64,000 nucleotides of DNA. It comes from a virus. Position 1 is the stretch's first letter; each line of letters begins with the position of its first letter. The notes under the pieces are model-generated. The model was not told where the DNA came from. It worked only from the letters and a program-made list of their open reading frames with translations, and searched no databases. Below, in pieces: positions 11,160 through 31,700 of this stretch. The translations under genes and the position numbers were made by a program. The stretch covers positions 205,741 through 269,740 of IMG/VR virus record IMGVR_UViG_3300042465_005589, one strand, 5' to 3'.

Positions 11160-11169
11160 ATTTTTTTTA

Positions 11170-11606: not shown

Positions 11607-11618
11607 ATTCTTTTTTTA

Positions 11619-11650
11619 TAAATTTAGTTTATTTTTATTTCTTTGTCAAA
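11619..11650 (-). promoter_or_regulatory. Possible Bacteroidota-type promoter inside the operon
   Basis: On the minus strand TTTG (11647-11650) is followed, 20 bases after its TTG, by TAAATTTA (11619-11626), one mismatch from TAnnTTTG. It would boost transcription from the zinc-ribbon gene to gp46. The -33 part lies in the end of the nuclease gene. The box is AT-rich, so chance is possible. Confidence 0.4.
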
Positions 11651-12498: not shown

Positions 12499-13398
12499 TT
12501 ATTTCATTGTATAAAAGTAATCACTGATATCACCCCTTAAATCGGCAACATCGGCATCACCCGTTAATTTTATTATTTTAACCTTACCATATAATCTCCC
12601 ACCATTTAAGTTGTGGAATAGTTTTACACCATCGTTCCAAGCATCACTATCCAAACAAATAATTATATTCCCATTTGCTTTCTCGTATAATGTATTAAGT
12701 AATAACTCTGACATATGTTTTCCCAACATAGAAATACTATTAGGTAGGAAGATTGCATCAAACGCTCCCTCACAAAGATGAATGTCCTCATTCCAATTGA
12801 TTGTACTTTCAAAGAATATTATTTCATCCTTTGAAGCTTCGGGGTTTTTATATTTGGCACGACTATTTGGGTCCCAACTTCGGGCTATGAAATAATTTAA
12901 TTTATTTTTACTATCGTAAGATGGGATTATTATCCTTCCCGAAAACGCTCCTTTATCACAGAACCCAATACCATATTTTTCAATAATATTATCAGTAATC
13001 CCACGTTGAGTTAAATAATTATAAGCTTGACGACGAACAGGGTAAACTAAACTGCTGTCCTTGAATAGGGTAAACCCATCTGGCAGTTTTAATATATCTT
13101 TTCGTTTCTCTTTTGGTTTATGTTGTTCAGGTTGAAGTAGGTTATATATTTTTTTCTGTTTCTTATTACCAAAATTATCTATAAGTTTTCCCAAAGGTCC
13201 TTTGGTGTTATTCTCATCACCACAACTCCAACACTTGTAAACGTGTTCAAAGTAGTTTACCTCAAGGTTTCCTTTGTGTTGTTCTTCATCGCATATTGGA
13301 CAATCAAAAGATATTTGACCTTTTGATTCATAGTGAAGTTTTTCATCTCCCAATATATCGTGTAGTATTTCTAGTAAAATTTCGGCATCATCTGACAT
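12499..13398 (-). CDS. DnaG-type DNA primase, T4 gp61-like role
   Basis: The 299-residue protein has an N-terminal zinc-binding domain (CPIC at 33-36 and CWSC at 56-59) and a primase core. The TOPRIM catalytic Glu is at 210 (LCEGAFDA) and the Asp pair at 250/252 (ICLDSDAW). It makes RNA primers for lagging-strand synthesis and should act with the DnaB-type helicase encoded at 52438-53823. The frame extends upstream to a GTG, but I chose the ATG at 13398 because the zinc domain begins there and the extra part crosses the divergent promoter region. A near-consensus promoter ends 4 bases before this ATG, so the mRNA may be leaderless. Confidence 0.93.
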   Translation of the reverse strand: MSDDAEILLEILHDILGDEKLHYESKGQISFDCPICDEEQHKGNLEVNYFEHVYKCWSCGDENNTKGPLGKLIDNFGNKKQKKIYNLLQPEQHKPKEKRKDILKLPDGFTLFKDSSLVYPVRRQAYNYLTQRGITDNIIEKYGIGFCDKGAFSGRIIIPSYDSKNKLNYFIARSWDPNSRAKYKNPEASKDEIIFFESTINWNEDIHLCEGAFDAIFLPNSISMLGKHMSELLLNTLYEKANGNIIICLDSDAWNDGVKLFHNLNGGRLYGKVKIIKLTGDADVADLRGDISDYFYTMK

Positions 13399-13402
13399 AT
13401 AG

Positions 13403-13433
13403 CAAAGATAAGAAAAAATAATATAACAGTCAA
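13403..13433 (-). promoter_or_regulatory. Bacteroidota-type promoter for the primase operon
   Basis: On the minus strand TTG (13431-13433) and TATCTTTG (13403-13410) are separated by 20 bases; the -7 box matches TAnnTTTG exactly and is identical to that of the sigma operon. Only four bases separate it from the ATG, so transcription would start at or next to the start codon. Confidence 0.75.
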
Positions 13434-13459
13434 TCTTCACAAGTTTTTCATTCCTATTA

Positions 13460-13467
13460 TATTTATT
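13460..13467 (+). promoter_or_regulatory. TATTTATT late-type box before the appendage island
   Basis: TATTTATT, one base off the TATTTATA box, ends 16 bases before the first plus-strand gene. It lies back to back with the primase promoter in an 85-base divergent region. Confidence 0.4.
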
Positions 13468-13483
13468 GAGATAACCTAGAGAA

Positions 13484-13699
13484 ATGAGCACACAAATAAC
13501 TATAAGTAATATTACCGGAGTATCTCCTTTTAAAGTGTATCTATGTGATAACCCTATTACTTTATCAATATATATAGACACAATTTCAACGTTTCCATAT
13601 AATGTGGTTATACCTCCTATTTGGAGTACGTTGACATCATTTAATATAAAAGTTATAGATAATAATAATTGTGAATCAATTTTAAATTTAACATTATAA
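13484..13699 (+). CDS. Small appendage-island protein, paralogue of the gene at 16828
   Basis: The 71-residue product is all-beta in appearance (ITISNITGVSPFKVYLCD, later SFNIKVIDNNNCES). It aligns by eye over most of its length with the 101-residue protein at 16828-17133 (IQSITGSNFPYTIYACD, later VGIKVIYGDGCE). No known function. It sits at the head of the fibre island and is likely a small virion or fibre-tip component, or a chaperone-like module repeated in the island. Confidence 0.7.
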   Translation: MSTQITISNITGVSPFKVYLCDNPITLSIYIDTISTFPYNVVIPPIWSTLTSFNIKVIDNNNCESILNLTL

Positions 13700-13700
13700 T

Positions 13701-14603
13701 ATGCCTTGTAGTTCTACATATTGCCTTTCAAACACTGGTTACCCAACATTCGACGATGTATACTTTAGTGCCGGAACACATAATTCTCAACTATATTGGA
13801 CCGGTCAAACTAATAGTTTATTTATCTATTATAATACCGGGTCAACCCAATGGTGTTTATCAACCGTTTTAGATGGAGTTTGTTTATTATCAGGTCAATC
13901 ACCTTGTTTTAACCCATGTCCGGATTTAGACGATGTTTATTTCTCTAGCGGAACATGTCCCACTCCGACCCCAACCCCAACAGCATATTGTTCTAGTTTA
14001 AATTTTTCAGCAATTTTTGATTGTGATGTTGACACACCAACTCCCACACCTACACCCACATCCACTCCAACCTCAACGCCAACTCCAACCCCTACCAACC
14101 CATGTAATGTTGTTATAAGTGCAACAATTCAAAATATCCCAAATACTCCCACACCAACACCAACATTAACACCTACACCTACTCCACCTGTTGCTCGTAC
14201 TTGTACTTTTGAGGGAGCGGTAACTTTCAACACAATAGATGATAGTATTGTATGTCCGTATAGTTATCAATTCCAAAGTTGTTATAATGGTATGATGTAT
14301 TACACAACAAATCAAATTGTAACTCCAGGTAATATTCCAATTGAAAAGTTTCACGTTTATCAAGCCAATGTTAATGGAATTGTTATGTGTGTTGGATATA
14401 TTGGAGTTAATAATAACACTATTGGTAAAGACGATATTACACTATTATTAGGACCATACGGATTTTTAGATGATGGTGATTGTATATTATGTTCTCAATC
14501 AATAGTCCCTACACCAACACCAACACCGACACCAACAGAAACCATACTCCCATCAGAATGTACTGACTGTGGAATGGAAGGTTACTTATATAATAAAACT
14601 TAA
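13701..14603 (+). CDS. Pro-Thr-rich fibre or appendage protein
   Basis: The 300-residue protein has a short N-terminal domain with a duplicated LDDVYFS-x-GT motif (residues about 15-25 and 75-85). Blocks of TPTPTPT linkers (about 87-95, 112-133 and 148-165) follow, then a folded Cys-rich domain (about 168-260) and another TPTPTP block before a Cys-containing end. There is no signal peptide, as expected for a virion protein. The linkers should be extended, proteolysis-resistant and possible O-glycosylation targets. Two bases separate it from the previous stop, so it is co-transcribed. The binding target is unknown. Confidence 0.75.
   Translation: MPCSSTYCLSNTGYPTFDDVYFSAGTHNSQLYWTGQTNSLFIYYNTGSTQWCLSTVLDGVCLLSGQSPCFNPCPDLDDVYFSSGTCPTPTPTPTAYCSSLNFSAIFDCDVDTPTPTPTPTSTPTSTPTPTPTNPCNVVISATIQNIPNTPTPTPTLTPTPTPPVARTCTFEGAVTFNTIDDSIVCPYSYQFQSCYNGMMYYTTNQIVTPGNIPIEKFHVYQANVNGIVMCVGYIGVNNNTIGKDDITLLLGPYGFLDDGDCILCSQSIVPTPTPTPTPTETILPSECTDCGMEGYLYNKT
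13957..14190 (+). repeat. Hexanucleotide-type repeats coding Pro-Thr linkers
   Basis: Three clusters of CCNACN units (about 13957-13982, 14036-14098 and 14146-14190) code TPTPTP tracts; a further block lies at about 14510-14540. Codons vary between copies (acc, aca, act, acg with ccc, cca, cct), so protein sequence rather than DNA repeat seems to be maintained. Confidence 0.8.
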
Positions 14604-14613
14604 AAATTAAAAT

Positions 14614-16824
14614 ATGCCATTTTCAGCATCAACTTGTTTAACAAATTCAGGAACTGTCGCTTTAGGAGGGACATTTAACATATATTCAAATGTTGATGGA
14701 TATACCACTCCTTTCCAAACTAACGTAAGTTATACTAGTTTATTTGGTCCGTTATGCCCATATGTTATGGGTAATGTACCTAATGGGACTAATACAATTA
14801 GAATTATTGATATCACAACCACATGTTGTGCAACTATTGAATTACTATCTAATGATTTATGTACAACTTGCGATTTATCATTTGATTCATATCAAACTAA
14901 TAATGTTGGGATAATTGTTGCCGGAGAATTAACAGGTAGTTGTGAAAATGACATCACCGATTATAGAATATTTTGGTATGGTCCAAATTCGTCAACTAAT
15001 CTTGCATTTACATCAGGTTATGGAAGCTCCTTTGTACCATACAATTTAACACATCCATTAGTAGGAATTAACTCACCAATGGTTGAAGCCGGAACATATA
15101 TTCCAGTTATTGATAAGGTAAAACTAAATGGTCTTAATTATTCTCAAACAGGTGGAACAGGTTATATTCAAGCAGAATTAGAATGTTTTAACGCGACAAC
15201 AGTTAATGTCCAACCTTTTACTTGTGATAATGGAACAGTACCGTTACCGAACGATTATACTCATAGGGTTAATTTTTCTGCAGCAGCCGCAGGTACCACT
15301 CCATTAACATTACAATCAACTTTTGATTTAGACATTACAACTAATTATTTTTCGTGGAAATTTAAAGGGGATGCAATTCCGGATTTTCTTAAAATAACAT
15401 TCTATGGTTCAGATTATTCCGACCCAATTATTTTAGAATATTGGGAAATTGGGGGAAACATTTCAATTTCCAATGCGGAGTATTTGACATTTCCAAAATC
15501 CGCTAGCACCACAGATTATTTTTCAAAAGTAACCTCATTAACCTCATTATCAAGAAATGTTGGCGATTATCTAATTTTAGAAGTAATTCCAAACCAATTT
15601 AACTCACAAACAAATTGGGATTTTTATTTTACTTGTATGAATAGTTTTGATTGTGATTTATGTTTATATGATTATTTAAATACACCATATAAAATAAAAT
15701 CATCATCTATTACAGGTATTACGGGTTCGTGTTCTTCAATTGAGGTCAAATTTGATGTATCCGGATGTACCGAAAGTTCAATAATAAATAGCGATATTTA
15801 CAAATATCAAAAAACAGACGCAAATCCACTCTCAACAACAAGTTTTAATACTAATACATATACAGATGATATCACGGGATTAAGAAATAGAACAACAGGT
15901 AGTTTGGATTGGGACGCAACATCCTGCAGTATGCTTTTTGGTATAAATGTTCCTCCAATTTGTTCACCTATACCTAACACAAACATAATATCTTTTAAAA
16001 AAGAAAATACCGGACCATCAGGACAAGGTGTAATTAAAATGGAATTTAGTAGTTTAAGTGATTTAGTTGATTATAAATCGTCTTATGATTTGACATTACC
16101 TTATTCAGGAACACCATTTAATTCTGCCGACCCAAATTATTATAGATATTTTCAATTATTTATACCAAAAAACTTAACTCCAAATACTAATTGTGGTGAT
16201 GGAACGTCTCTTTTAACGTATTATTTACATTATTCTAGTATAGTAACAACAGGAACTACCGGAGGAAATTATACTTTAAACATAACAATGCCAACAATAT
16301 CTGACGATATCGCACCGTTTGACCCTTGTGACATAAATTGTCAATTAAATATTAATAGTGTTGTAACAACAGTTAATAATTCTTCAACAGGTGCAACAAA
16401 TGTTGAGGATTTTACTTCTAACACCGGTTCTAAATACGTTGTACCTTTTGGAGTAACAAAATATTTTGTTGAGTTTCCTCCTGTCACTAACAGTGCTAGT
16501 ACTATTCAAGGAGTATATTATCTTAACAATTATCTTAATGCAACAGTACCTTTTTCAGGTAGTAGTTCTCCCTATACTCGAATACCTTCGTTATCCGCAG
16601 TAACTTGTAATAATTTCACATCTATTGGGGTATCATATACCCAAGTACAATTTGTATACATATATAATTATAAAGTTGAATTGACCGACCAAAATAATTT
16701 TAAGTCTTTTAGAATTTTAGCAACACCTATAGTTAACGGAGCACCTAGTGGTATATTCAGTGATATCGTCGCAACGGTGGTTAATGGTTCATTAACGTAC
16801 GCAAACCCATCATATACTTTTTAA
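14614..16824 (+). CDS. Large beta-rich appendage protein
   Basis: The 736-residue protein begins like its neighbours (MPFSASTCLTNSGTVALGG) with a beta-rich, Ser/Thr/Asn-rich composition. It carries several CxxC or C-pair segments (ITTTCCATIE, LCTTCDL, CDLCLYDYLN, CDINCQLN) that look like domain boundaries. Domains of about 150-200 residues seem to follow one another, but no known fold is recognised. The lack of a signal peptide and the position in the fibre island favour a virion appendage. It stops 3 bases before the next ATG. Confidence 0.75.
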   Translation: MPFSASTCLTNSGTVALGGTFNIYSNVDGYTTPFQTNVSYTSLFGPLCPYVMGNVPNGTNTIRIIDITTTCCATIELLSNDLCTTCDLSFDSYQTNNVGIIVAGELTGSCENDITDYRIFWYGPNSSTNLAFTSGYGSSFVPYNLTHPLVGINSPMVEAGTYIPVIDKVKLNGLNYSQTGGTGYIQAELECFNATTVNVQPFTCDNGTVPLPNDYTHRVNFSAAAAGTTPLTLQSTFDLDITTNYFSWKFKGDAIPDFLKITFYGSDYSDPIILEYWEIGGNISISNAEYLTFPKSASTTDYFSKVTSLTSLSRNVGDYLILEVIPNQFNSQTNWDFYFTCMNSFDCDLCLYDYLNTPYKIKSSSITGITGSCSSIEVKFDVSGCTESSIINSDIYKYQKTDANPLSTTSFNTNTYTDDITGLRNRTTGSLDWDATSCSMLFGINVPPICSPIPNTNIISFKKENTGPSGQGVIKMEFSSLSDLVDYKSSYDLTLPYSGTPFNSADPNYYRYFQLFIPKNLTPNTNCGDGTSLLTYYLHYSSIVTTGTTGGNYTLNITMPTISDDIAPFDPCDINCQLNINSVVTTVNNSSTGATNVEDFTSNTGSKYVVPFGVTKYFVEFPPVTNSASTIQGVYYLNNYLNATVPFSGSSSPYTRIPSLSAVTCNNFTSIGVSYTQVQFVYIYNYKVELTDQNNFKSFRILATPIVNGAPSGIFSDIVATVVNGSLTYANPSYTF

Positions 16825-17164: not shown

Positions 17165-20100
17165 ATGAGATTAACAGATAGAAATTTTCCACCTTACATA
17201 TCACCAGACGCATTAGTTCACATTGTATTAACAGGTGATACGACAGATAGCCCTCAAGGTTCATCCTTTAAAGCTACGATTGGTTCATTAGATAATGCCG
17301 TAATCATAACAGGAACCGGAATTAATTCGTCAGTTAGAAAATCAGTAGGGAATATTGCATCAGGCAATTATTCAGCTGTTTTAGGTGGACAAAATAATTC
17401 AGGGACAACATACTTTTCAACCGTAGTTGGGGGATTTTGTAATATATCATCAGGTTACAACTCATTTATTGGTGGCGGTAAATACAATACCTCTTCTGAT
17501 TATATTTCAACAATTGGTGGTGGTAAATGTAACATTGCCTCTGGTAATACATCAACAATTGGGGGTGGTAGTGGTAATTTTTCTTCTTATTGTCGTTCAA
17601 CAGTTGGGGGAGGCTCATATAACACCGCTTCCGGTAAAGCATCAGTAGTTAGTGGTGGTCAATCTAACACTTCTTCCGGTTTTTATTCAACAATTGGTGG
17701 TGGTAGTGTTAACACAGCGAGTAGTATATCATCAACAGTTGGTGGGGGGCAATATAATATTGCTTGTGGTCAATTTTCTACAATTGGAGGAGGGGGAGGT
17801 TCATATTCATTAATTAGTAATAAAGCGTACGGTATTGGTTCTACAGTCGCAGGTGGGATGAGTAATCAGTCATTAGGTAATTATAGTACAATTGCCGGAG
17901 GTGCTAGTAATTTTAGTCTTTCCGGTACATCTACAATTGGAGGAGGGAGTAACAACTGTTCTACAAATTGTGGTTCCACAATTGGAGGGGGTGGTTTTAA
18001 TACAAGTTCAGGATGTTACTCAACAATTGGTGGTGGAAATAGTAATTTATCAAACGGTAATTGTTCAACAGTTAGTGGTGGTCATTTTAACAAAATATGT
18101 CAATCTCAAAATTATAATAATAATTATTTTTGTTTAGGCGATGTTATTGGGGGAGGAAATTGTAACACCATAAATACAAATACTTATGTTGGTTATACTT
18201 GCACCGGTGGTAACACAATTGGTGGTGGTTACACAAATATTATAACACCATACCTTAACTTTAACACGATTGGTGGTGGTCAAAAAAATAAATCTTACGG
18301 TAATAGTTCAACAATTGCCGGTGGACAGGAAAATATAACTTCCTTTGGTTGTTCAACAATTGGTGGGGGAATTTTAAATGTTGCAACAGGAAATACATCA
18401 ACTATTGCGGGTGGTTGTGGAAACCAAGCAATAAATAGTTTCTCAACAATTGGTGGTGGTACAAATAATATATCATGTTTTCAATCATTTGTTGGTGGAG
18501 GTAGATGTAATAAATCTTTAGGTAGTTATTCCACAATATCAGGAGGTCAAAATAATTGTAATGTTCTCAGCCATTCTGTTATTGGTGGAGGATTTAATAA
18601 TAAAATAACTTGTACATATTCAACAATTGCTGGTGGTAGAAATAATTGTGTATGCGGAACAGATTCTTCAATAGTTGGTGGTTCCGGTAATAGCATCAAT
18701 AGTAATGTATTGAATCCATTTAGGTCAGTAATTGCCGGTGGTGTGAATAATAAATTATGTCAATCATACGGGTTTATTGGAGGTGGTAGAGGCAATCAAA
18801 TATCAGGTACAACTGGTATTGGTGAAGATTCTGTTATTGTCGGTGGATTCTATAATAAAACATATGGTGTTAGAGCAGCAATCTTAGGGGGAGCACTTAA
18901 CTGTTTAGGTTCAAACACTTATGGTAGTGGTCTTGTAAGTGGTAATAATAATAGAATTTCTGTACCATTTGGTATAATTGGTGGAGGACAAGTTAATGTA
19001 ATATGTGGTGACCACTCAATTATTGGTGGTGGTGCGTTAAACTTTATTGGTAATTCATCAGTAACAAACTCATATTACGCAAATAATTGTTCAATAACTT
19101 TATATGGTAATCAGACATCGTCATTTAATGTTAACGACCTTTTACTAACATGGGATTTTAGTTGTTCAAGAAATGTTGTTATAACTGCATCTACGTATTC
19201 GGGCGGATATACTTATTTGGATGTTAGTGGGTCAACAATATTTGTAAATCCATTCACATCGTCCGCTCCAATAATTAGAAATTTAACAGATAGTTTACCA
19301 GGATTCCAAAATAGTTTTATTGGTGGTGGTTACGCAAATACCGTATCCGGAATTACAGGGTTTATAGGTGGAGGAGGTTATAATAAAGTCTCAGGAAATG
19401 GAGGAGTTATTGGTGGTGGTCGTTGTAATATATCAAGTGGTAATCAATCATCGATAACCGGAGGATATGATAACAAATCTATTGGGTGTCAATCATCAAT
19501 CGTTGGTGGTGGTCGTAATTGCTCTATTGGACATTGTTCCTTTATTGGAGCTGGTTCATTCAACACCACATGTAATTATCATTCAACACTTACCGGTGGT
19601 AAGTGCAATATATCATCAGGTAATTATTCATTTATTGGTGGTGGTTCTGGAAATACCGTTTCCGGTGGTGTGTCATTTATTGGTGGGGGTCAATTTAATA
19701 GCGTACAAGGAATTAAATCAACAATTGGTGGAGGATGTAATAATATAATCTTTACATCCGGTTCAACTATAGGTGGTGGTATTACTAACACAATTTGGTC
19801 GCCTAATTCAACAATTACCGGTGGTCTTTCAAATATTATTTGTGCTGCCGCTAGTGATTCCTTTATCGGTGGTGGTGGTTGTAACATTGCATATAGTGGT
19901 AACTCAACAATTAGCGGAGGTTTTCAGAACAAAACATGTAATTGGGTTGCAACAATTGGTGGAGGTTTTAAAAACACTGCGTCAGGTGGTTGTTCAACAA
20001 TTGGAGGTGGTTATAATAACTGCTCAATTGGTGCTTGTTCATTTGTTGGGGGAGGTAGTCAACACAGTGTCGCAGGGTGTGGTTCATCAATAGTTGGTGG

Positions 20101-21055
20101 TTCACTTAATATAATTTCGGGGAACTGTTCAACAATTGGCGGAGGAAATGGAAATATAATTTGCAGCAACATGTCAACAATTGGTGGTGGTTGTCAAAAT
20201 ACAACTTGTGTAAGGTTTTCATTTATAGGAGGTGGTTATAAAAACTGTATAATTTGTCAAACAGCGTATGGATACTCAACAATTGTAGGTGGATGGACAA
20301 ATAGAACTCACGGTGAATCTAACTTTATTGGTGGTGGTCAATTCAACTGCATTGGAACACCTGCGTTATCAGGTTCATCATTCTTATCTGTAATTGTTGG
20401 TGGAAATACAAATGGTGTATGTGATACAGCTTCTTTTATTGGTGGTGGTGATGGAAATGTCGTATTTAGCGGTTCTTCGGCAATAGTTGGTGGAGCCAGT
20501 AATATTTCATGTGCTGAACATTCTTTTATTGGAGGTGGGTGTGCAAACACTGTCACAGGTTGTTATTCATCAATTCTTGGTGGAGCCTATGGATGTGCAC
20601 CTCGTTTTGGACAAAGGTCATTTGCTTCAGGTACTTGGGCTGGCGCTGGTTCAAGAGGTGCGTCACAACAAATTGATTTAGTAGGTAGAAATAAAACAAC
20701 AAGTGGAAGTGCTGTCAACATATTTTTAGATGGGGCAAGTCAACGTATATCCGTAATTGCAGGAACTGCAATGTTTGTTACAATAAATATTGGTGGTATT
20801 AAATCAGATGGTTCTGCAGGAGCTCACTATATAAGAAAAGTCGCAATTAAAAATGTAGGTGGTGCAACTTCTTTAATTGGTGCGAGTCCGGTATCAGTTA
20901 TTGGAACTGATGTGGAAGATAACGCATCTTATGACGTTGCAATTAGTGCTGACAATACTAACGATGCTTTAGATATACAAGTCACAGGAGCTGTTGGTGA
21001 AACTTTAAGATGGACTGTCCATATTGAAGGTGTAGAAATAGTTTACGGAATATAA
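17165..21055 (+). CDS. Giant tail-fibre-like protein with YadA-like beta-roll repeats
   Basis: The 1296-residue protein has a short N-terminal part (1-55, MRLTDRNFPPYISPDALVHI), probably for attachment. A very long run of about 15-residue repeats of the type STIGGGxxNxxSGxx fills residues about 60-1135, as in the left-handed beta-roll heads of trimeric adhesins (YadA). A non-repeat island breaks it at about 636-716. The last 160 residues are a different domain (SFASGTWAGAGSRGASQQ to the end, with ADNTNDALDIQVTG and LRWTVHIEG) of a type seen at the ends of tail fibres. It probably forms a trimeric fibre that touches the cell surface. It has its own late-type box. Confidence 0.85.
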   Translation: MRLTDRNFPPYISPDALVHIVLTGDTTDSPQGSSFKATIGSLDNAVIITGTGINSSVRKSVGNIASGNYSAVLGGQNNSGTTYFSTVVGGFCNISSGYNSFIGGGKYNTSSDYISTIGGGKCNIASGNTSTIGGGSGNFSSYCRSTVGGGSYNTASGKASVVSGGQSNTSSGFYSTIGGGSVNTASSISSTVGGGQYNIACGQFSTIGGGGGSYSLISNKAYGIGSTVAGGMSNQSLGNYSTIAGGASNFSLSGTSTIGGGSNNCSTNCGSTIGGGGFNTSSGCYSTIGGGNSNLSNGNCSTVSGGHFNKICQSQNYNNNYFCLGDVIGGGNCNTINTNTYVGYTCTGGNTIGGGYTNIITPYLNFNTIGGGQKNKSYGNSSTIAGGQENITSFGCSTIGGGILNVATGNTSTIAGGCGNQAINSFSTIGGGTNNISCFQSFVGGGRCNKSLGSYSTISGGQNNCNVLSHSVIGGGFNNKITCTYSTIAGGRNNCVCGTDSSIVGGSGNSINSNVLNPFRSVIAGGVNNKLCQSYGFIGGGRGNQISGTTGIGEDSVIVGGFYNKTYGVRAAILGGALNCLGSNTYGSGLVSGNNNRISVPFGIIGGGQVNVICGDHSIIGGGALNFIGNSSVTNSYYANNCSITLYGNQTSSFNVNDLLLTWDFSCSRNVVITASTYSGGYTYLDVSGSTIFVNPFTSSAPIIRNLTDSLPGFQNSFIGGGYANTVSGITGFIGGGGYNKVSGNGGVIGGGRCNISSGNQSSITGGYDNKSIGCQSSIVGGGRNCSIGHCSFIGAGSFNTTCNYHSTLTGGKCNISSGNYSFIGGGSGNTVSGGVSFIGGGQFNSVQGIKSTIGGGCNNIIFTSGSTIGGGITNTIWSPNSTITGGLSNIICAAASDSFIGGGGCNIAYSGNSTISGGFQNKTCNWVATIGGGFKNTASGGCSTIGGGYNNCSIGACSFVGGGSQHSVAGCGSSIVGGSLNIISGNCSTIGGGNGNIICSNMSTIGGGCQNTTCVRFSFIGGGYKNCIICQTAYGYSTIVGGWTNRTHGESNFIGGGQFNCIGTPALSGSSFLSVIVGGNTNGVCDTASFIGGGDGNVVFSGSSAIVGGASNISCAEHSFIGGGCANTVTGCYSSILGGAYGCAPRFGQRSFASGTWAGAGSRGASQQIDLVGRNKTTSGSAVNIFLDGASQRISVIAGTAMFVTINIGGIKSDGSAGAHYIRKVAIKNVGGATSLIGASPVSVIGTDVEDNASYDVAISADNTNDALDIQVTGAVGETLRWTVHIEGVEIVYGI
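17345..20590 (+). repeat. About 45-base coding repeats of the beta-roll fibre
   Basis: Dozens of diverged units code ATTGGTGGTGGT (IGGG) followed about 20 bases later by AAT/AAC and TCA-GGT codons. Copies at 17480-17700 and 19960-20200 show the pattern most clearly. The island at about 19070-19310 lacks it. Many near-identical stretches could recombine and change fibre length. Confidence 0.85.
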
Positions 21056-21306: not shown

Positions 21307-22287
21307 ATGATTTTTGTTACAGCACAACCTGATGTACCTTATTTCCATTGGCAAATAATGGTGTATATACACAACTTTATTGAACATGGTGTTCCTCCAA
21401 ATCAAATCCACGTATTACTTGGAATAATAAATGAAGATGGTAAACCAACTGAAGAATCTTTAAAATTAAAAGATTCCGGAGTTAACGTACATTATTATAT
21501 CGATAATAGACCTCAAAAACATTACATCCCAACAGTTAAACCCTTTTTAATTTCAAAATGGTTAAAAGATTTTCCTGAACATGGTAAATGTTTCTTCTTA
21601 CATGACTCTGACATTATATTCAGAAAATTACCAAATTTTGATAGTTTATTAAATGATGATATTACATATTTATCCGACACAATAGGATATATTGGTTATA
21701 GATATATTATGGATTGTTGTGAACGTTATGAAAATGCTCACCCAACATCAGGTAAAGGTCAATTATTAGAAGAAATGACCGATGTTGTTGGCGTTTCAGT
21801 TGAGTGTATTGAATGTAATCAAGAAAATTCGGGAGGTGGTCAATACTTAATTAAAAACACCGATTGGTTATTATGGGAAAAAATATACGCAGATTGCGTT
21901 CCACTGTATGACCAAATGTTAGACTATCAAAAAAGATTTCCAATTAGTCCAGGCGAAATTCAATTTTGGACCGCCGAGATGTGGTCACTATTATGGAATT
22001 TGTGGTTACATGGAATTGAGACAAAAATAACCCCTGAATTTGATTTTTCATGGGCAACAGATTCAATAAAAATATATGAAGATAAACCTATTCTTCACAT
22101 GGCAGGAGTAACAGATAATCAAAAACAAGATAAATTTTATAAAGGAGATTTTATTAATCTTAACCCATTAGACAAATTAAAAGAGAATATTAATTTTTTC
22201 GATTATGTCAGTTCTCAGAGTTCAACAAAAAAATATGTAGAAGTTATGAAATCTTTGGTGAAAAAACAAATAAAGGATTATTTATAG
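21307..22287 (+). CDS. Glycosyltransferase, possibly a GT-A peptide O-glycosyltransferase
   Basis: The 326-residue protein starts with a nucleotide-binding-like strand (MIFVTAQPDVPYFHWQIMVY) and has a DxD-type metal/sugar-nucleotide motif at Asp100-x-Asp102 (FFLHDSDIIF) preceded by VKPFLISKWL. The order Trp-Gln near the start, then a KP-x-x-WL helix, then DxD resembles plant and algal hydroxyproline/serine O-glycosyltransferases, though this is a by-eye comparison. It sits between Pro-Thr-rich virion genes, so virion proteins are plausible substrates. There is no signal peptide or membrane segment, so it acts in the cytoplasm. An alternative is a transferase that modifies another target. Confidence 0.75.
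   Translation: MIFVTAQPDVPYFHWQIMVYIHNFIEHGVPPNQIHVLLGIINEDGKPTEESLKLKDSGVNVHYYIDNRPQKHYIPTVKPFLISKWLKDFPEHGKCFFLHDSDIIFRKLPNFDSLLNDDITYLSDTIGYIGYRYIMDCCERYENAHPTSGKGQLLEEMTDVVGVSVECIECNQENSGGGQYLIKNTDWLLWEKIYADCVPLYDQMLDYQKRFPISPGEIQFWTAEMWSLLWNLWLHGIETKITPEFDFSWATDSIKIYEDKPILHMAGVTDNQKQDKFYKGDFINLNPLDKLKENINFFDYVSSQSSTKKYVEVMKSLVKKQIKDYL
22279..22286 (+). promoter_or_regulatory. TATTTATA late-type box before an LRR-like appendage gene
   Basis: TATTTATA overlaps the glycosyltransferase stop codon and ends 21 bases before the ATG at 22308. Confidence 0.45.
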
Positions 22288-22307: not shown

Positions 22308-24551
22308 ATGATATATTATTTTCAAACATGTTGTGTCAAATTTAACGAATCCGACAATTATTTCGGAGTAAATGACATTACATTAATATTACCTATTTTA
22401 GGGGAAGTTTATTCTATTGAAACCCTTTCATTTAGTGGGTGCGCTTATTTAATATCAGGACCAATCCCATCAGGGTCGTTAATTTACGCAGGGAATAAAA
22501 CTATCTCAACATTATATAACGATTGTCAAGATTGTTTGGATAACGCTTATGGTTGTTTTCCTCCTCCTCCTCCACAGCCAGCAATTAGTTATATTCAATC
22601 CAATGAATGTGATGTAATTACATTATTTCCAATGACTGTTGAATGTGATGTTATTAATCCTTCAACTGCAGGTAGTCGTGATGGTAGAGCATCTATATCT
22701 ATAACAGGAGGAACACCTCCATATACAGTTACTTGGGGTGATGGTAGTATTTCACCTGCTATCATGGATTTACAATCGGGTTCATATCCAGCAACTATTG
22801 TTGATTATTATGGTGATTTTACCGCCAATACAATATGCGTATTAACAGGACCAACCGCAACACCAACACCTACATTAACCAAAACCCCAACACTAACACC
22901 AACACCAACACTAACGGTTACACCAACATTAACTAGAACTCCAACACTAACACCTACATTAACTACAACACCTACGGTTACACCTACATTAACACCTACA
23001 TTAACATCAGGAATACCACCAACACCAACAATTACCCAAACTATAACACCTACATTGACTATAACACCTACATTAACCAAAACACCAACACCTACCCCAA
23101 CACCAACAATAACAATAACACCAGAAGTACCATCATACAACGAAACATTCACAATGATTGCAAGAAGTTTGAATAGTTTTGCCCCTGTTAGTGGTTTTGA
23201 ATTTAGAATTGACGCATCACTGCCATTTAGAATTGTTTGGGGTGATGGTAATACAGATAATTACCCTTCAGGTATTAATTATATATCACACATATATTCA
23301 ACACCTTATACTGGAAATATATTAATTCAAACATCAAATTTAACATCTATAACCCAAATTATACCTAAAAATGTTAACCCTCAAATAAATGAGAATAGTG
23401 TTAGATATTTAGAAATTGAAACTTCTCAATTAAATCTTTTAGATGGGTTAGTTGGAATGGGTGACGGTAATGGACTAAATTATTTTTTATCAGGTGATAT
23501 AAGTTTATTACCGACAACATTATTATCATTAATTTCACGGTGGTCTAATTGTTCAGGTAATATTGCAAATTTACCACCTAATATACAATATTTTCATATT
23601 AATTTGTTCTTTAATAATTATCCAAACCAATTAAATACTATTTCAGGAAATGTTTCTAATTTACCAACAACATTAAAAACTATTATTTTAGGTGGTATAA
23701 ATACCATAACAGGTAATATAAATAATATTCCTTGCCCATCACTTGAAAAAATTATGATTGCTGGTTCAAACACTATTACCGGTGATATATCATTAATGTC
23801 GACACCTAATTTAGATACCATAAATATATATGGTAATAACACAATATTTGGTGATTTAGGCGGATTATCAAATAGTGTTATGGATATAAGATTGGCTGGT
23901 GGAAATACTGTTACTGGTGATATATCAACATTACCAACAAGTTTATCACACATTTATGTTGAAGGTACTAATACTCTTTATGGTAATATTAACACATTAA
24001 ACTATTCAATATTATCAACTTTACAAATTTATGGAAATAATAATATTACTGGTAATATTAGTTCATTAAATTTAAAACTAGGAGCGATTTTTGAGTTAAA
24101 GGGTAACAATACATTAACTGGTAATATTGGTAGTATAGGTAGTACTTATAACTATAACCAACTAGCTATATACGGTAACAACACAATTTATGGTAATATT
24201 CAAGATTTACCTTCTAATTCAAAAAATGTTAGAATACAAGGTAATAACGTCATTTCAGGTGATTTATCATTAGTTCATTTAAATATCCAATATTTATATA
24301 TATACGGTAACAACACAATATCAGTATTCTCAAATAGTACAAGAATTTTTACAGATTTAAGAATAATTGAAATAGTGGGAAGCGGCTTTAATAGTACTAA
24401 TGTTGATAAATTATTAACAAGTTATGCTAATTCAACTTGGGTTAGTAGTAAATTATTAAAAATAAAAGGCACATCATCACCTAAATACACAAACACTTCA
24501 TCATACAACACACTTCAAACAACAAAAGGAGTGGGAATAACAATATCATAA
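22308..24551 (+). CDS. Appendage protein with SprB-like domain, Pro-Thr linker and LRR-like repeats
   Basis: The 747-residue protein has an N-terminal domain (1-85) and a Pro-rich PPPPPQP stretch. A SprB/PKD-like unit follows (about 120-180, ISITGGTPPYTVTWGDGS), then a TPTLTPTP linker (about 183-275), a second beta domain with IVWGDGN, and from about 370 to 700 a run of 22-25 residue units built on NNTITGNI and SL-x-x-LPTSL, which looks like a leucine-rich-repeat or beta-helix solenoid. Such solenoids commonly bind ligands. A receptor-binding or decoration role on the virion is likely. It ends one base before the next ATG. Confidence 0.78.
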   Translation: MIYYFQTCCVKFNESDNYFGVNDITLILPILGEVYSIETLSFSGCAYLISGPIPSGSLIYAGNKTISTLYNDCQDCLDNAYGCFPPPPPQPAISYIQSNECDVITLFPMTVECDVINPSTAGSRDGRASISITGGTPPYTVTWGDGSISPAIMDLQSGSYPATIVDYYGDFTANTICVLTGPTATPTPTLTKTPTLTPTPTLTVTPTLTRTPTLTPTLTTTPTVTPTLTPTLTSGIPPTPTITQTITPTLTITPTLTKTPTPTPTPTITITPEVPSYNETFTMIARSLNSFAPVSGFEFRIDASLPFRIVWGDGNTDNYPSGINYISHIYSTPYTGNILIQTSNLTSITQIIPKNVNPQINENSVRYLEIETSQLNLLDGLVGMGDGNGLNYFLSGDISLLPTTLLSLISRWSNCSGNIANLPPNIQYFHINLFFNNYPNQLNTISGNVSNLPTTLKTIILGGINTITGNINNIPCPSLEKIMIAGSNTITGDISLMSTPNLDTINIYGNNTIFGDLGGLSNSVMDIRLAGGNTVTGDISTLPTSLSHIYVEGTNTLYGNINTLNYSILSTLQIYGNNNITGNISSLNLKLGAIFELKGNNTLTGNIGSIGSTYNYNQLAIYGNNTIYGNIQDLPSNSKNVRIQGNNVISGDLSLVHLNIQYLYIYGNNTISVFSNSTRIFTDLRIIEIVGSGFNSTNVDKLLTSYANSTWVSSKLLKIKGTSSPKYTNTSSYNTLQTTKGVGITIS
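22856..23130 (+). repeat. Pro-Thr-Leu linker repeats
   Basis: About 270 bases of ACACCNACANTNACN units code for TPTLTPTLT tracts. They separate an SprB-like domain from the solenoid part. Confidence 0.8.
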
Positions 24552-24552
24552 A

Positions 24553-25578
24553 ATGGAATATAATTTTTGTCTAAATATTAGTATTAATAACTTACAAATT
24601 CATTTTAACCCAAATGGATTAGATGTTAATGGATATAATCAATGGGTATCTGATGATTACACATATTCAATTAATTGGGACACCTCATTAAGTAGATGGA
24701 AATTGAATGGTGGTAATCTAACTTATTTGGTGTTTTCTTCTTTACCATCTTCTGTACCCCCTCTTAACTCTTGGTATGTATTAGGTGCTAACGGAACTGT
24801 TTATGCTAACGAAGGTGTTTGTAATCCATTAGGTATTAATTCATTAACCTATAGTGTTAATCAACCAATATGTTCATGTGATGGTAATTTAATGGTAACT
24901 GTTTCAGGTGGTTACCCACCATATCAATATTCAATTGATAATGGTGTTACGTATTATAATTCACCAATGTTTAGTCAATTATGTTCAGGAATTTATAGCG
25001 TTAAAGTTATTGATGTAAGTGGAAACACTAATAGTGATAATGTAACATTAAATGAACCTACACCACCAACAGTTTATAGTGTAAAATTAACAACAACATC
25101 AACAAATCCGGTTAATAATAATACAACGTTGACTAATCAATATACAACAACGGTTAGTGTATCACCTGAATTACCAAGTGGTACTGTAATCAATTTTAAC
25201 ATATCACACAATAACAAATTTTACTATTCTCCAAGTGGTATAACTGCAAGTTTGGTTACTAGTAGTGCCTTATATAAAAATGATAATTTAATACTAACCA
25301 CATCAAACGGTACTGTAACATCAGATGCAAATTTTAATACAATTCAAGGATGTCAAAACTTAATAAAGTATTTAGATTTCTATACCGAAACTTGGAACTC
25401 ATTAACCTTTACAAATTCAGATTCAATTGTTATTAACACGGTTACAACAATAACTAACAATGGACCATTAACACCTTGTACGTATACATTAAGTGAGGAC
25501 TTATATAATATATACAACGCAACTATAAGTGGTTGTGGATGTTGTGTAGTAGAAATTATTAACGTTAATCAAAAATAA
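24553..25578 (+). CDS. Appendage protein with SprB-type repeat
   Basis: The 341-residue protein has an N-terminal beta domain (1-95, FCLNISINNLQIHFNPNG). One SprB-type unit follows at about 98-170 (VSGGYPPYQYSIDNGVTYY, then LCSGIYSVKVIDVSGN), then a Thr/Asn-rich beta domain and a Cys-rich end (ISGCGCCVVEI). SprB repeats are best known from the gliding adhesin of Flavobacterium. It starts one base after the previous stop and is part of the fibre set. Exact function is unknown. Confidence 0.78.
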   Translation: MEYNFCLNISINNLQIHFNPNGLDVNGYNQWVSDDYTYSINWDTSLSRWKLNGGNLTYLVFSSLPSSVPPLNSWYVLGANGTVYANEGVCNPLGINSLTYSVNQPICSCDGNLMVTVSGGYPPYQYSIDNGVTYYNSPMFSQLCSGIYSVKVIDVSGNTNSDNVTLNEPTPPTVYSVKLTTTSTNPVNNNTTLTNQYTTTVSVSPELPSGTVINFNISHNNKFYYSPSGITASLVTSSALYKNDNLILTTSNGTVTSDANFNTIQGCQNLIKYLDFYTETWNSLTFTNSDSIVINTVTTITNNGPLTPCTYTLSEDLYNIYNATISGCGCCVVEIINVNQK

Positions 25579-25603: not shown

Positions 25604-28069
25604 ATGGGATACATATTAAAAAATACACAAGGTTTACTTAGTACAAGACTAACTGATACCGGAAGACAAAAATTATCACAGGGTAGTTTTAATATCTCTT
25701 ATTTTCAAGTAGGAGATAGTGAGGTTTCTTACAATACATTAACAGGAACGTCATACAACCAATTTACCACAAAAATTCTTGAACCAGCCTTTAACGCTCA
25801 AAATTCGACAGGAGCACCTGAATATAACAAACAAAACGTTAAATACCCATACTATATTGATGGAATAACAGGTAACACTTATGGAATCCCATACATGGCG
25901 TCTATCCCTCAATCGGTATATAATAGAGCCGCAATGAGAGGATTTTTCACCGGAGACACAACCGCAACAACTTTCACATGGAGCGCATTAACAAATAGCC
26001 AATATACAATTAATTCTAACTATCTCGTAGATATGTCTACATTAACGGGTGGTAGTGTTATTCAATTAGTATATTCAGGGTGTAATTCAAATATTGTAAG
26101 ATTACCATCTATTGGTGACTTTGTTACAATATATTATGATGGTCAAGGAGAATACAATTGTTATTGTGAACCAGGATTAACACCTACCCCAACCTATACC
26201 CCAACATCAACTTACCAAGTCACTAATACACCAACACCAACTCCAACACCAACATATACAGGATGTGAAACACCAACTCCAACACCAACCCCAACAATAA
26301 GTTGTTCTACAACACCTGTACCTACCCCAACACCACCAAATTGTGAGATGTCAATGAGTAGTTGTTATTCAATCTTAACTTATAAAATTGTAGATATTTG
26401 TAACGGTAACTATACATTAGATAGACCTACACCTGATTTTTCAAACTTTTCAAGTGGATGTTTTGCCAGAGTATTAGTATATCCGCCAAACATGACAACA
26501 TTATATGACAGTATCACACCTAACTCACATTGGAATCAAAATGTTATTAATTTTGAATCTTTATGTAGTACAGATGAATCAGATGTTAAAATTTGGAATA
26601 TGAACATTCCCTGGTCTGAAGACCCTGCCGGTTTATATAATTCAACATATAAAGGTTATCCTTACTTTGGTTCGGCGTCTTATATGGGTAGTAAAGAATA
26701 CTTTGGATATATGTCCGATAGTGGTCAAACAGATACTGGAGTTGTTTATTACTATAACTCATTTGACGAGACAGTAGTTGTTCAACCTAGTGAACAAAAA
26801 TCTATAGCAATTATTCATTATACTAATCAAGCGATTGATTTCTTTTATGGTGAAAAATTCGCCTTTGAACCTTACGACCCGGCAAACCCTTCTGATACAA
26901 CAGGAGAAGCCCGCAATTTTAGATTACACTTGCCGTGGTTAATGTGGCATAAAAATCCAAATTGTTGTAAAGGTCAAACATTTTGGGTTGACCCACCAGG
27001 ATTTGATGAATATCTATTATTCCAACCATATTACATTGAGTCAACTAAAAATAGTGATATGAATACTCCCGGTATTAGATATTACCAACTATGGGACACT
27101 AATGCGAATGATAATGGATTACCAAGTAGAATCGGTAAAGTATTCCCTGATTCACAAATTATTGTAATTGATGATGAAGAAATTATTGCCGCTATGTCTT
27201 ACAAGTCAAATCGTAATTGGACATTACCGGCACCTAAGGTTTCATTAACAACACCAAATACTTGTGTGGTTGAAAATAATCAACCTGTTGTAAAAGGTAT
27301 TTTAAGTGCTAACACTGAATATATGTACGTTACTTACAGATTTAGTAATACCGATATTTTTACAAATTCATTACACTGTAATTATTATACTAAAATTCAA
27401 GGACCTAACATTGATTGTGGTTCAGTTGCGTCACAAAACGTTTCCATTAGATTTGGTGCGGAATTCCCTTGTTTAAATCAACCTGTTGTTATCCCAACAA
27501 CTACAACAACAACTACAACAACCACAACATTATGTCCATCATGTGATATAATAACAGGGTTCTACGCAGACACATTACAAATTATTTGTCAAAAAGTTAT
27601 TGGTACAAGTAGACCTGACCCAGCTGAATGGAAAATTATTGATTTTACCTCACAGATAAGCGCAACAACAATTAATGGATATCTAACCGTAGATAGTTTA
27701 ACAGGAACCACATTTACAATCACTGAAGAAAACTACGCAGCCGCTGACGATTATGATTTAAACGATTTTATTCCATTAGTACCTAACGGAACAACAACAC
27801 CTTCATTAAATTTTGGAGATGAATATTATTTCTATGGTTCATTAGAAACCGATATCCAAGCAACCATTTATGAAATGAAATATAAAATAAATCTTGGACA
27901 AGCCGAGTTTCAATCAACCTCAAACCCTACATGGACTAAGGGGACAAATTCATATATTACAGAAATTGGTCTTTACGATTCTGATATGAACCTTATGATT
28001 GTATCAAAGCTACAATCCCCTGTATTAAGACAAGGTATTCAACAGTTTTTAGTTAAATTTGATTTCTAA
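25604..28069 (+). CDS. Tail-collar-like fibre protein with Pro-Thr and poly-Thr linkers
   Basis: The 821-residue protein starts with a segment like phage tail-collar fibre N-termini (LLSTRLTDTGRQKLSQG, then FQVGDSEVSYN), which in other phages attach the fibre to the baseplate. A TPTPTPTP linker follows at about 193-245, then a large central domain (to about 625), a poly-Thr linker (about 630-643), and a C-terminal domain ending with ITEIGLYDSDMNLMIVSKL, which matches the E-I-G-L-Y/F-D motif of the tail-collar family. The split of the collar family motifs to the two ends suggests a large insertion. It has its own late-type box. Confidence 0.8.
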   Translation: MGYILKNTQGLLSTRLTDTGRQKLSQGSFNISYFQVGDSEVSYNTLTGTSYNQFTTKILEPAFNAQNSTGAPEYNKQNVKYPYYIDGITGNTYGIPYMASIPQSVYNRAAMRGFFTGDTTATTFTWSALTNSQYTINSNYLVDMSTLTGGSVIQLVYSGCNSNIVRLPSIGDFVTIYYDGQGEYNCYCEPGLTPTPTYTPTSTYQVTNTPTPTPTPTYTGCETPTPTPTPTISCSTTPVPTPTPPNCEMSMSSCYSILTYKIVDICNGNYTLDRPTPDFSNFSSGCFARVLVYPPNMTTLYDSITPNSHWNQNVINFESLCSTDESDVKIWNMNIPWSEDPAGLYNSTYKGYPYFGSASYMGSKEYFGYMSDSGQTDTGVVYYYNSFDETVVVQPSEQKSIAIIHYTNQAIDFFYGEKFAFEPYDPANPSDTTGEARNFRLHLPWLMWHKNPNCCKGQTFWVDPPGFDEYLLFQPYYIESTKNSDMNTPGIRYYQLWDTNANDNGLPSRIGKVFPDSQIIVIDDEEIIAAMSYKSNRNWTLPAPKVSLTTPNTCVVENNQPVVKGILSANTEYMYVTYRFSNTDIFTNSLHCNYYTKIQGPNIDCGSVASQNVSIRFGAEFPCLNQPVVIPTTTTTTTTTTTLCPSCDIITGFYADTLQIICQKVIGTSRPDPAEWKIIDFTSQISATTINGYLTVDSLTGTTFTITEENYAAADDYDLNDFIPLVPNGTTTPSLNFGDEYYFYGSLETDIQATIYEMKYKINLGQAEFQSTSNPTWTKGTNSYITEIGLYDSDMNLMIVSKLQSPVLRQGIQQFLVKFDF
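26178..26340 (+). repeat. Pro-Thr linker repeats in the tail-collar-like gene
   Basis: CCAACACC-type units code for TPTPTPTPT tracts, with two Cys-containing interruptions. A separate run of ACA/ACT codons at about 27490-27530 codes a poly-Thr linker. Confidence 0.75.
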
Positions 28070-28075
28070 TAAAAT

Positions 28076-28675
28076 ATGAAAAAAACACTTAAAGAAAGTC
28101 CTAAAGTATTAGGACTTGATGTTTCAACTAAAACTATTGGTTGGGCATTATTTGATATACAAAGTAGAGAATTACTCGAATTAACACATATATCTCCCGT
28201 ACCAAAACCAAAAGAAGAAAACAAAATAAAAGAGTTACTTCTAAAAGGAGAAATTTTCAGAAGTAAACTTTTAGAATACAAAGATATGGGTATCACTAAA
28301 GTAATTATCGAGGAACCTTTATTAAACTCAAACAATGTTTATACAGTTCAAACGTTATTAAGATTCAACACTTTAATTACAAAAGAAATATATGACGTTT
28401 TAGGTGTAGTACCTGATTTCATATCAACATACAATTCTCGTAAGTTCGCCTTTCCGGAATTAACTCAATTAAATGATAAAGGTAAATACGTACTATTTGG
28501 AGGTCTTCCTAAAGACATTGATAAGAAAATGATTATATGGGACCTAATTGCAAAAAGAGAACCTCAAATCACTTGGTTATACACAAGAAACAATACCCTT
28601 AAAAAAGAAAACTTTGACCAAACAGATGCTTATTGTTGTGTTATAGGTCATATGAAACAAGAAAAAATATGGTAA
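28076..28675 (+). CDS. RuvC-like Holliday junction resolvase
   Basis: The 199-residue protein has the RNase H fold signature of RuvC-type resolvases: GLDVSTKTIGWALFD with catalytic Asp15, VIIEEPL with Glu79/Glu80, and NFDQTDAYCC with Asp181/Asp184 near the end. These acids hold two Mg ions that cut branched DNA. In T4 the unrelated endonuclease VII removes branches before packaging; this enzyme probably fills that role. It is the last gene of the plus-strand island, 6 bases after the fibre gene, and is followed by a strong terminator. A related nuclease acting on other structures is the alternative. Confidence 0.88.
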   Translation: MKKTLKESPKVLGLDVSTKTIGWALFDIQSRELLELTHISPVPKPKEENKIKELLLKGEIFRSKLLEYKDMGITKVIIEEPLLNSNNVYTVQTLLRFNTLITKEIYDVLGVVPDFISTYNSRKFAFPELTQLNDKGKYVLFGGLPKDIDKKMIIWDLIAKREPQITWLYTRNNTLKKENFDQTDAYCCVIGHMKQEKIW

Positions 28676-28709: not shown

Positions 28710-31700
28710 TTATTGACATACTCCTGAATTTACATGAATTTCTAATGTTGATGTTGCTGCAACAGTAACATTATAAAATTGAACTTGATAATAACCGGGA
28801 GTTGTAATTGGGGCGATTTCACTCGCATAAAGTGAAGCATCCACATATAATAAAACACATTGTGAGTTTGCCACACTAGATAAGAGTGTCACAGTTAAAT
28901 TTTGATTAACTAACCCTAATTGAGCACCCAATAAAGGATTTGACACAGTTACTGGGAAACTATATGAACTATCATATAGATAAAACGTCTGTGGTTGGAT
29001 ATTTGTAACTTGAGATTCTTCTTTTTGAATACTAACAAGGAAATTTCTTGGTTTTTCAATATTAATATCACTCTCACATTCTAGACAACAATCTTCAGAT
29101 GAATAAATTGTATTACTAATTGTTGTGAAATAATTAGTATTATAAATCTGAACATTTAATTGAGGTGGTAATGTTGGTTCTCCATTATAAATATTTTTTA
29201 ATTTCCAACACGATACATCACCTCTAACGTCAGTAGAACTAAATCCATCACCAATTAATAAATTAGGTAATACTAATATAGGTTGTAATATATAATATGG
29301 CTCACCATCCTCTCCAAGAATACACGATGCGTATAAATACCACAATGGTAATGGTGTTGGTGTAACCGTTGGTGTAACAGTTATTGTTGGCGTAACAGTT
29401 ATTGTTGGTGTAACAGTTGGGGTTGATGTAGGGGTTGGTGTTAATGTTAATGTTGGAGTTATAGTTGGCGTTACAGTTATTGTTGGTGTTGGAGGTAATC
29501 CAGGTGTCCACGTCGGGGTTAATGTTGGTGTAACAGTTAATGTTGGTGTCACAGTTAATGTTGGAGTTATAGTTAAAGTTGGTGTTATAGTTATTGTTGG
29601 TGTTGGTGTAGGAGCTAAACCACAATATTGACATGAGATATTATACTCAATAAACACATTAACATTAACATCTGTTGCTACCAAATATTGTTCTTCACAT
29701 TTTGCAATTATTTGAATCCCATTATTTAATGGGTCAATATTAACTTGAGCAACTTGGTCAAAACTTTCTAATAAAGCAACTAAAGCGTTAAAATATTCTT
29801 CATCAGTTGGATAATGGTTTAAAGCATAACTTGTATAAAATTCTGAAGTTTCTGTTACACTACCAATAGTTGCAACAATATTAAAGATTGCTTGATTAAG
29901 TAAACAATTAGTATAACCGGAAGTTAAATCATAATAACCCTCATTTAACATTTCTTTTGGACCTTTTTTAACTAATTCGTTAATATTTTCAAAATCACTA
30001 TTACAAATATTAAACGTTTGAAATGATGATATTGAATCAAATCCATCAATTATCACTTGTCTAATTTTAACACATCCATCACTATCTGTCACTTGTAAAC
30101 TATAAGTTCCAGCACTTAAGCTATTTAAATAATACCCTGTCTGCCCATTTACATTATTACTCCATAATAAAGTAAAAGGTGGTGCACCATTTGTAATATA
30201 TGCAGATACCGTACCATCATTACCATTATTGGCATCAGTACTAGATAATAAAAAATCAACATTTTCAGAGGTATCAATTACAAAATTAATAATTTGTGCA
30301 CAACCCGGAACCGCATCATCAATTTCTGCTGCGTACACACCTGAAAATAAATTATTAAATGTCGTTGCACTAGTTTGAATTATTTGTAATTCACTACCAA
30401 TATTAACGGTATAAGGTGGTGTACCACCTGAAATACTAATCTCCACTGAACCATTTTGTAAATCACAAGTTGTACCTGTTGTACTCGCACTTAAAGTAAA
30501 AGGTGACGTAGATACTATTGTATATGAATTAGTATATACACAAGCACCATTATCAGATATTGTTAAATCGTAAGTATCAGCCGCCAAATTAGTAAATTGC
30601 CAAACAGAAGAATTAGTTACTTGTGTTTGAGTGTCTCCATTTGAATTTACTAGTGTATATGTGTAAGGAGATTGACCACCTAATAGAGTCATTTTTATTT
30701 TTCCATTATTTCCACAATCCGCATTAATTGTGTCAATAGTAATAATTGAAAACCCATTTGGCGTTAAGACCGATATTGACCCAACAACAGAACATAAAGC
30801 AGCATCAGTCACTTTTATAGAAAATAATCCTGAACCAATATTTTGAAAAGTTTGTGAAGAACTAAATGAAACATTAATTTGACCTGTAGACGCAGAATAA
30901 TAATATGGTCCTGTCCCTCCTGATATAGTTACCGTAACTTCACCATCAGATGAAAAACAAGACGGTGGTACGCTCGTTAAAATTGCCGCAACACCTAATG
31001 CCGGTACCAACCCTACTGTCGCACTTTGAGATAACGTACAATTAGTACTATCGGTTATAGTTACACTATACGTACCATTTGTTAACCCTGTAATAAAGTC
31101 AGTTGTTTCGTTATTTGACCATAAATAAGTAAACGGTGGGTTACCTGTTAAACCCGTCACATATATTTTACCAGATTCAACGCTATTACACCCCGAATCT
31201 TCAACAACATAAAAACCCCAAGTAAGAGATGATGACGATTTTATAATAATAGTTTCTGACATTCCTGTACAACCTCCACCATCATCGGCAACAACATAAT
31301 AAATACCTGGCGATAACGCCGGTGGGGTTGTGAATGTATTATAACCCGTTGTAGCAGATGTTACAAACCCTGTTAATGTATTATATAAATAAAAATCAGC
31401 AGAACCATAGAAACTACTTGTTTGAGCCGTCAACGCCCCATTATTAAAACTACAGGTAGTATTTTGTTGACCTATAATACTTACACATGTACCACTAGAA
31501 ATATTAACATTTACCGGTAAGACATTTTGAGATGGTGATGAACAAGAATCGATAACATTAAAGGTATATGTACCCGCAGATAATGTTGTTGCGGTATATC
31601 CTGTCACACCAGAACCTAACGCTATTGTCCCTAAAGCGGGACTTATCCATTGTATAGTATAATCCGGAGCAGTACCGTAGATATCTACACTAAAAACCCC

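Follow-up and report, generated by a model that had tools for sequence, protein, structure and literature searches.

The window, the whole stretch of 64,000 nucleotides analyzed here, covers positions 205,741 to 269,740 of a virus record of 318,164 bp. Judged from their translations, genes around the fibre island encode a T4-type baseplate wedge, a gp25-like protein, ribonucleotide reductase, a helicase, and RecA-like and single-strand-binding proteins. The nearest relatives of the wedge (positions 46670 to 48508) belong to Flavobacterium and other myophages, at 24 to 28% identity. From the T4-type baseplate genes and this affinity, we infer a contractile-tailed jumbo phage, probably infecting Bacteroidota. 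Within the island, ORF 21307-22287 (plus strand) encodes a putative glycosyltransferase (GT) of 326 aa. Its gene is adjoined by that of a 1296-aa protein (17165 to 21055) with short GGG-N-xS repeats and a YadA-head-like appearance, whose length varies strongly among near-identical relatives, from 898 to 1724 aa. Directly downstream lies ORF 22308-24551, and farther on are an 821-aa protein (25604 to 28069, plus strand) and a RuvC-like gene (28076 to 28675, plus strand). The fibre-like proteins at 24553 to 25578 and 28710 to 31760 contain repeats of the SprB family, whose namesake is a gliding adhesin of Flavobacterium.

The product of ORF 21307-22287 matches the profile of phrog_4417, annotated as "unknown function," over its full length (residues 1 to 317; E = 5.2e-69). 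Searches of Pfam, NCBIfam, and PDB sequences yielded no match for the ORF; 36 family members gave no Pfam match above the cutoff, GT8 and GT6 included, and a PDB profile search returned no GTs. Membership in CAZy family GT8 or GT24 was rejected, since family-level sequence similarity is absent from the Pfam search of the 36 members and from the PDB profile search. A structure model built from a 36-sequence alignment reached a pLDDT of 96.9 and a pTM of 0.93, and Foldseek found 267 matches to it in the PDB at E ≤ 0.001. The best were UGGT, glycogenin, XXYLT1, and the ABO transferases, folds that we take to represent GT24 (UGGT), GT8 (glycogenin and XXYLT1), and GT6 (ABO transferases). The relationship is distant: all query-normalized TM scores are ≤0.46, and identity to the best-matching solved GT-A structures is 8 to 14%. 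The confidently folded model assigns the protein to the GT-A glycosyltransferases by fold class, and its nearest folds suggest retaining chemistry. Several fold relatives (UGGT, glycogenin, LARGE, and XXYLT1) act on proteins. A divergent sequence, Orf49 of Lactobacillus phage LP65 (BFVD Q5ULR5), is a structural relative of the enzyme at a TM score of 0.72 and 23% identity.

The motifs of the enzyme are D100xD102, Q219xW221xxE/D224M225W226, H264xAG, and K279. D100 and D102 are present in 128/128 distinct homologues and H264 in 127/128, one lacking it, so that the family has both a GT-A fold with DxD and a metal-type His. Retaining GT8-type enzymes use the pattern DxD ... H ... K, and the corresponding residues presumably play the catalytic role here. 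The protein begins straight at its first beta strand (MIFVTAQPDVPYFHWQ), and neither a signal peptide nor a membrane segment is apparent in its sequence. The earlier note's description of a cytoplasmic DxD glycosyltransferase thus agrees with the invariant aspartates, the fold, and the absence of these segments. That note had also named structure prediction beforehand as a test, and the model matched retaining GT-A sugar-nucleotide enzymes, not GT-B DNA glucosyltransferases or lipid-modifying enzymes.

By tblastn, the enzyme is found in 74 of 50,697 phage records, mostly from phages of lactic acid bacteria and staphylococci, with Chryseobacterium phage MA9V-3 also among them. IMG/VR holds 207 close relatives, and GTDB genomes contain 36 enzyme loci, nearly all in Firmicutes and surrounded by phage genes. 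In Firmicutes phages unrelated to the jumbo lineage, its usual place is immediately downstream of the gene for the major capsid or major tail protein; among isolates, it follows the major tail gene in phiFL1A, 1706, SA2, and TPWB06 and is grouped with the capsid gene in bIL285, nattely, and iLp84. One homologue, its reading frame broken near the end, occurs outside any phage, in an Arachidicoccus MAG of the Bacteroidota (L481, positions 10001 to 15380). Its neighbors form a RiPP-like cluster that encodes GG-leader peptides, a LanC-like protein, another glycosyltransferase, and an ABC exporter of the C39-peptidase type, possibly a glycopeptide pathway.

The earlier note had proposed that the enzyme glycosylates Thr-Pro (TP) linkers of the island fibres. 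TP-type tracts are indeed present in all four ORFs that it named: ORF 13701-14603 (14034 to 14201, plus strand), ORF 22308-24551 (22845 to 23123, plus strand), ORF 25604-28069 (26171 to 26215, plus strand), and the SprB-repeat fibre of ORF 28710-31760 (29346 to 29612, minus strand). The TP pattern has 30 matches in the 318-kb record and 0 in a read-backwards control; more tracts lie outside the window (G000:C1 7730-9299, 47416-47474, and 302543-303279). Such linkers are Thr-dense and disordered by composition, and in nearly all jumbo-lineage loci the enzyme has TP-rich proteins beside it, 48/53 with strict TP tracts. They are equally present where the enzyme is missing, however. Anchoring the jumbo lineage on the RuvC-like neighbor as a fixed point, we compared loci with (GT+) and without (GT-) the phrog_4417 enzyme. 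Among those with full flanks, 26 have it and 32 lack it, and TP tracts occur in 32/32 GT- loci as well as in the 26 GT+ loci; the linker of ORF 25604-28069 itself is shared by GT+ and GT- orthologues. Distant enzyme-bearing phages show no TP linkers near the enzyme. Conversely, randomly drawn TP-repeat viral loci contain it in 4/103 among the matches listed, all 4 of jumbo-phage type by enzyme score, leaving 99/103 listed unrelated loci without it. We therefore rejected TP linkers as the acceptor signature and consider it unlikely that they are the enzyme's substrate, although the linker of ORF 22308-24551 may be a secondary acceptor.

Because TP tracts occur with and without the enzyme, whereas poly-Thr runs are gained and lost with it, the proposed acceptor shifts to poly-Thr. 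In the window this is an 11-residue tract (T11) in the 821-aa protein, at aa 632 to 642 (27497 to 27529, plus strand), which the earlier note overlooked. It is written in mixed codons (ACA/ACT/ACC), 0 such runs are expected in dinucleotide shuffles, and it is absent at the same alignment site in GT-less relatives. Among orthologues in the jumbo lineage, a run of at least five threonines occurs in 18/21 distinct GT+ proteins versus 0/24 GT- proteins (Fisher P = 8e-10). At the tract site, GT+ proteins read CLNQPVVIPTTTTTTTTTTTLCPSCD, and GT- proteins read CLNQ...NT and pass directly into the next domain. The three GT+ exceptions are L630, L672, and L695; in L630 extra TP tracts, one of them long, stand in for poly-Thr, a point in favor of the linker proposal. 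The AF2 model of the 821-aa virion-type protein is unusable (pLDDT 38), so its class, apparently tail-collar or fibre-like, is read from sequence features. With its T11 tract, this protein is the best-supported candidate acceptor in this phage.

Poly-Thr accompanies the enzyme well beyond the jumbo lineage. In all nine distant isolate phages with the enzyme (31 to 38% identity), a structural-type protein encoded close by, often right next to it, contains a poly-Thr tract. In Lactococcus phage 1706, for example, the MTP of orf13 carries a T10 tail and orf14 encodes the enzyme; in prophage bIL285 of L. lactis IL1403, the enzyme is orf45 and a T9 tail is found on orf50. Of the GTDB enzyme loci, 30/36 pass a strict poly-Thr filter and 35/36 have Thr tails on inspection, with several unrelated proteins of the same prophage sometimes tailed. 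In enzyme-bearing Firmicutes phages, C-terminal poly-Thr tails are found on both the major capsid protein (MCP) and the major tail protein (MTP), and the endings can match within one genome (L459, L460, and L450): in L459 the MCP ends ...STTTTTTGA and the MTP ...STTTTTTTTGA, and in L460 they end ...ITTTTTTTAAV and ...STSTTTTTTTAAV. By PHROG assignment, Thr tails occur on MTPs of phrog_88, 238, 1407, and 2645 and on head proteins of phrog_10 and 840, that is, in at least four major-tail and at least two major-head families. Threonine is the only residue forming homopolymers of ≥6 in GT+ loci (80 runs), and GT- loci have no Thr runs. All 95 distinct tracts use mixed codons, none a single codon, with all four Thr codons in use, which argues for selection on the protein and against simple DNA slippage.

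A separate observation concerns Staphylococcus phage SA2 (L087:7640-7940; also L090:5720-5926), whose major tail gene ends in ACT ACT CCC TAA within the Thr tail, while the +1 frame runs on into a long Thr-rich extension. This arrangement is a candidate programmed +1 frameshift that would give a minor fraction of the tail protein a mucin-like domain.

We observed the same pairing in two other protein groups. Thr tails were found in 3/3 GT+ Bacillaceae-type capsid proteins versus 0/58 GT- proteins with enough flank (0/77 GT- in all; Fisher P = 3e-5) and in 16/16 GT+ Lactobacillus/Enterococcus-type MTPs versus 0/17 GT- MTPs (P = 9e-10); these GT- relatives have other endings in place of the tail, for example, an Ig-like stretch. 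Contig fragments can hide the enzyme; two tailed GT- MTP contigs are fragments that stop short of its usual position. The GT+ locus L609, whose tail gene is frameshifted, was excluded from the MTP tree. The three trees each imply 4 to 7 changes per trait, and their supported branches give 1 + 2 + 2 = 5 independent pairs, of which ∼4.5 are concordant and 0 opposite. With so few independent gains and losses, the P values calculated from counts overstate independence. The association between enzyme and poly-Thr is strong, and the proven independent events are modest in number.

This small number of supported events lends some weight to hitchhiking, in which a recombination module carries both traits and no enzyme-substrate relation exists: enzyme and tail are usually adjacent, so that one exchange could move both. 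However, the tag also occurs on the capsid protein, which is encoded several genes away, and on unrelated families, with the matching endings per genome described above; jumbo-lineage phages have the tract two or three genes distant from the enzyme; and the mixed codons point to selection at the peptide level. We regard hitchhiking alone as improbable.

The association was also approached from the opposite side, by picking viral contigs solely on an (ACN)11 DNA pattern, which is an in-frame tract in at least 96 loci. Among the poly-Thr loci listed, 13/96 hold the enzyme, and in 11 of these 13 it lies 3 to 47 nt downstream; a poly-Gly control gave 0/74 among the matches listed. At the level of whole records, the enzyme is present in 8/50 poly-Thr contigs among the matches listed versus the 74/50,697 phage records given above. 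The majority of the poly-Thr viral contigs (L091 to L210) have no phrog_4417 enzyme; many of them are fragments or have GTs of other types in the vicinity. A scan of the neighbors of poly-Thr ORFs without the enzyme gave, among 69, two GT2 and two GT1-type Pfam matches, too few for a conclusion and a hint that such genes may be replacement enzymes.

The explanation that we favor, with a probability of roughly 0.8, is that a soluble retaining GT-A enzyme glycosylates poly-Thr tracts of the phage's own virion proteins. The sugar would come from a nucleotide-activated donor of the host, probably a UDP sugar, and the enzyme would place it on threonines of these tracts within the infected cell, either ahead of assembly or while it proceeds. 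In Firmicutes phages the acceptors would be the C-terminal tails of the major capsid and major tail-tube proteins and often of a third, connector-region protein; in the window's jumbo phage the best acceptor would be the T11 tract, with TP linkers perhaps additional but not defining. Head, tail, or fibre would thereby acquire a mucin-like coat of glycans. Catalytic activity, threonine as the linkage residue, the sugar, the timing, and the biological role are all inferred. Virion-gene context and structural acceptor candidates are both present, the enzyme adjoining MCP or MTP genes and the tags on MCPs and MTPs being lost with it. Since the enzyme almost always occurs with Thr runs on shell or tail proteins and GT-less relatives lack the runs, it very probably sugar-coats the particle. 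The earlier note's idea of virion glycosylation therefore keeps its core, an enzyme encoded with structural genes and stretches rich in hydroxy amino acids, and loses the TP linkers as acceptor.

Many phage glycosyltransferases modify the host envelope, and the GT6 and GT8 fold relatives include polysaccharide enzymes; the enzyme might accordingly act on the envelope, converting the serotype or masking receptors, or on some other molecule of the host, its company of late genes being incidental. Such a role does not predict that poly-Thr tags of unrelated structural proteins should come and go with the enzyme, or that phages of different phyla should carry its gene immediately behind those for capsid or tail, and no lysogenic-conversion layout with a flippase or membrane anchor was seen. 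We give it little credence. Glucosylation of phage DNA bases is an established role of other phage glycosyltransferases, and T4-like relatives often modify DNA. T4-type DNA glucosyltransferases have GT-B folds, however, and the phrog_4417 enzyme is not of this class: it has a GT-A fold with DxD and His, with no GT-B fold among the top Foldseek matches. It also lies within a capsid/tail module with no base-modification genes seen beside it, and it tracks poly-Thr, making a DNA substrate highly improbable.

Poly-Thr glycosylation of virion proteins thus remains our preferred reading, and we conclude, from comparative sequence data, that the retaining GT-A enzyme and its poly-Thr acceptor tags probably form a transferable two-part system whose parts are gained and lost together. 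A broader version, to which we would give slightly less than even odds, is that the family recognizes poly-Thr itself, so that a short tail would suffice for any virion protein. The system would then have reached phages in two or more bacterial phyla, and L481 would represent a bacterial branch that works on secreted peptides. If poly-Thr itself is recognized, a mucin-like coat of phage heads and tails would be general. The proposal supplies a testable function for a widespread "unknown" phage family and would allow sequence alone to predict which phages have glycosylated heads or tails, and at which residues, including isolates from Lactococcus, Lactobacillus, Enterococcus, and Staphylococcus. 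A compact cytosolic enzyme with a simple tag could also be useful for glycoprotein production in bacteria.

To our knowledge, few phages have so far been proven to have glycosylated virions. phrog_4417 had no function assigned before; virion glycosylation by phage GTs is already known, and the link to poly-Thr appears to be new, our literature search on poly-threonine in phages (most subscription papers being outside its scope) having found no description of a link to an enzyme. GT95 and GT96 are plant peptidyl hydroxyproline/serine transferases. As peptide glycosyltransferases they resemble the proposed role, and the earlier note had likened the motif order to theirs; in the Pfam and PDB searches they gave no sequence match, and they were not among the best PDB fold matches, the nearest being of GT24, GT8, and GT6 type. 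With these retaining GT-A enzymes (glycogenin, the UGGT catalytic domain, and ABO transferases) the family shares the fold, the DxD, and, farther along, a conserved His and a conserved Lys, whereas the QxWTAEMW and HxAGV motifs are peculiar to phrog_4417.

The closest functional parallel is in mycobacteriophages. According to PMC12363180 and PMC12619734, which cite Freeman et al. 2023 for Che8, Corndog, and Myrna, these phages encode glycosyltransferases for their own capsid and tail-tube proteins, the modification lying near the C termini according to PMC12619734, and the glycans shield particles from antibodies (PMC12363180). The system proposed here is alike in that a phage-encoded GT would act on capsid and tail-tube proteins. 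The enzymes differ: Che8 gp108 to gp110 are of GT2 and GT25 type and encoded far from the capsid genes, and homology was rejected because gp110 (GT25 type), the one compared directly, aligns with the phrog_4417 enzyme at chance level. In contrast to enzyme-bearing phages, Che8 lacks poly-Thr at the termini of its capsid and major tail proteins. Animal mucin-type O-glycosylation is similar by analogy only, in that dense Thr/Ser/Pro tracts carry O-glycans; it depends on another enzyme family, and the phage setting is cytosolic and prokaryotic.
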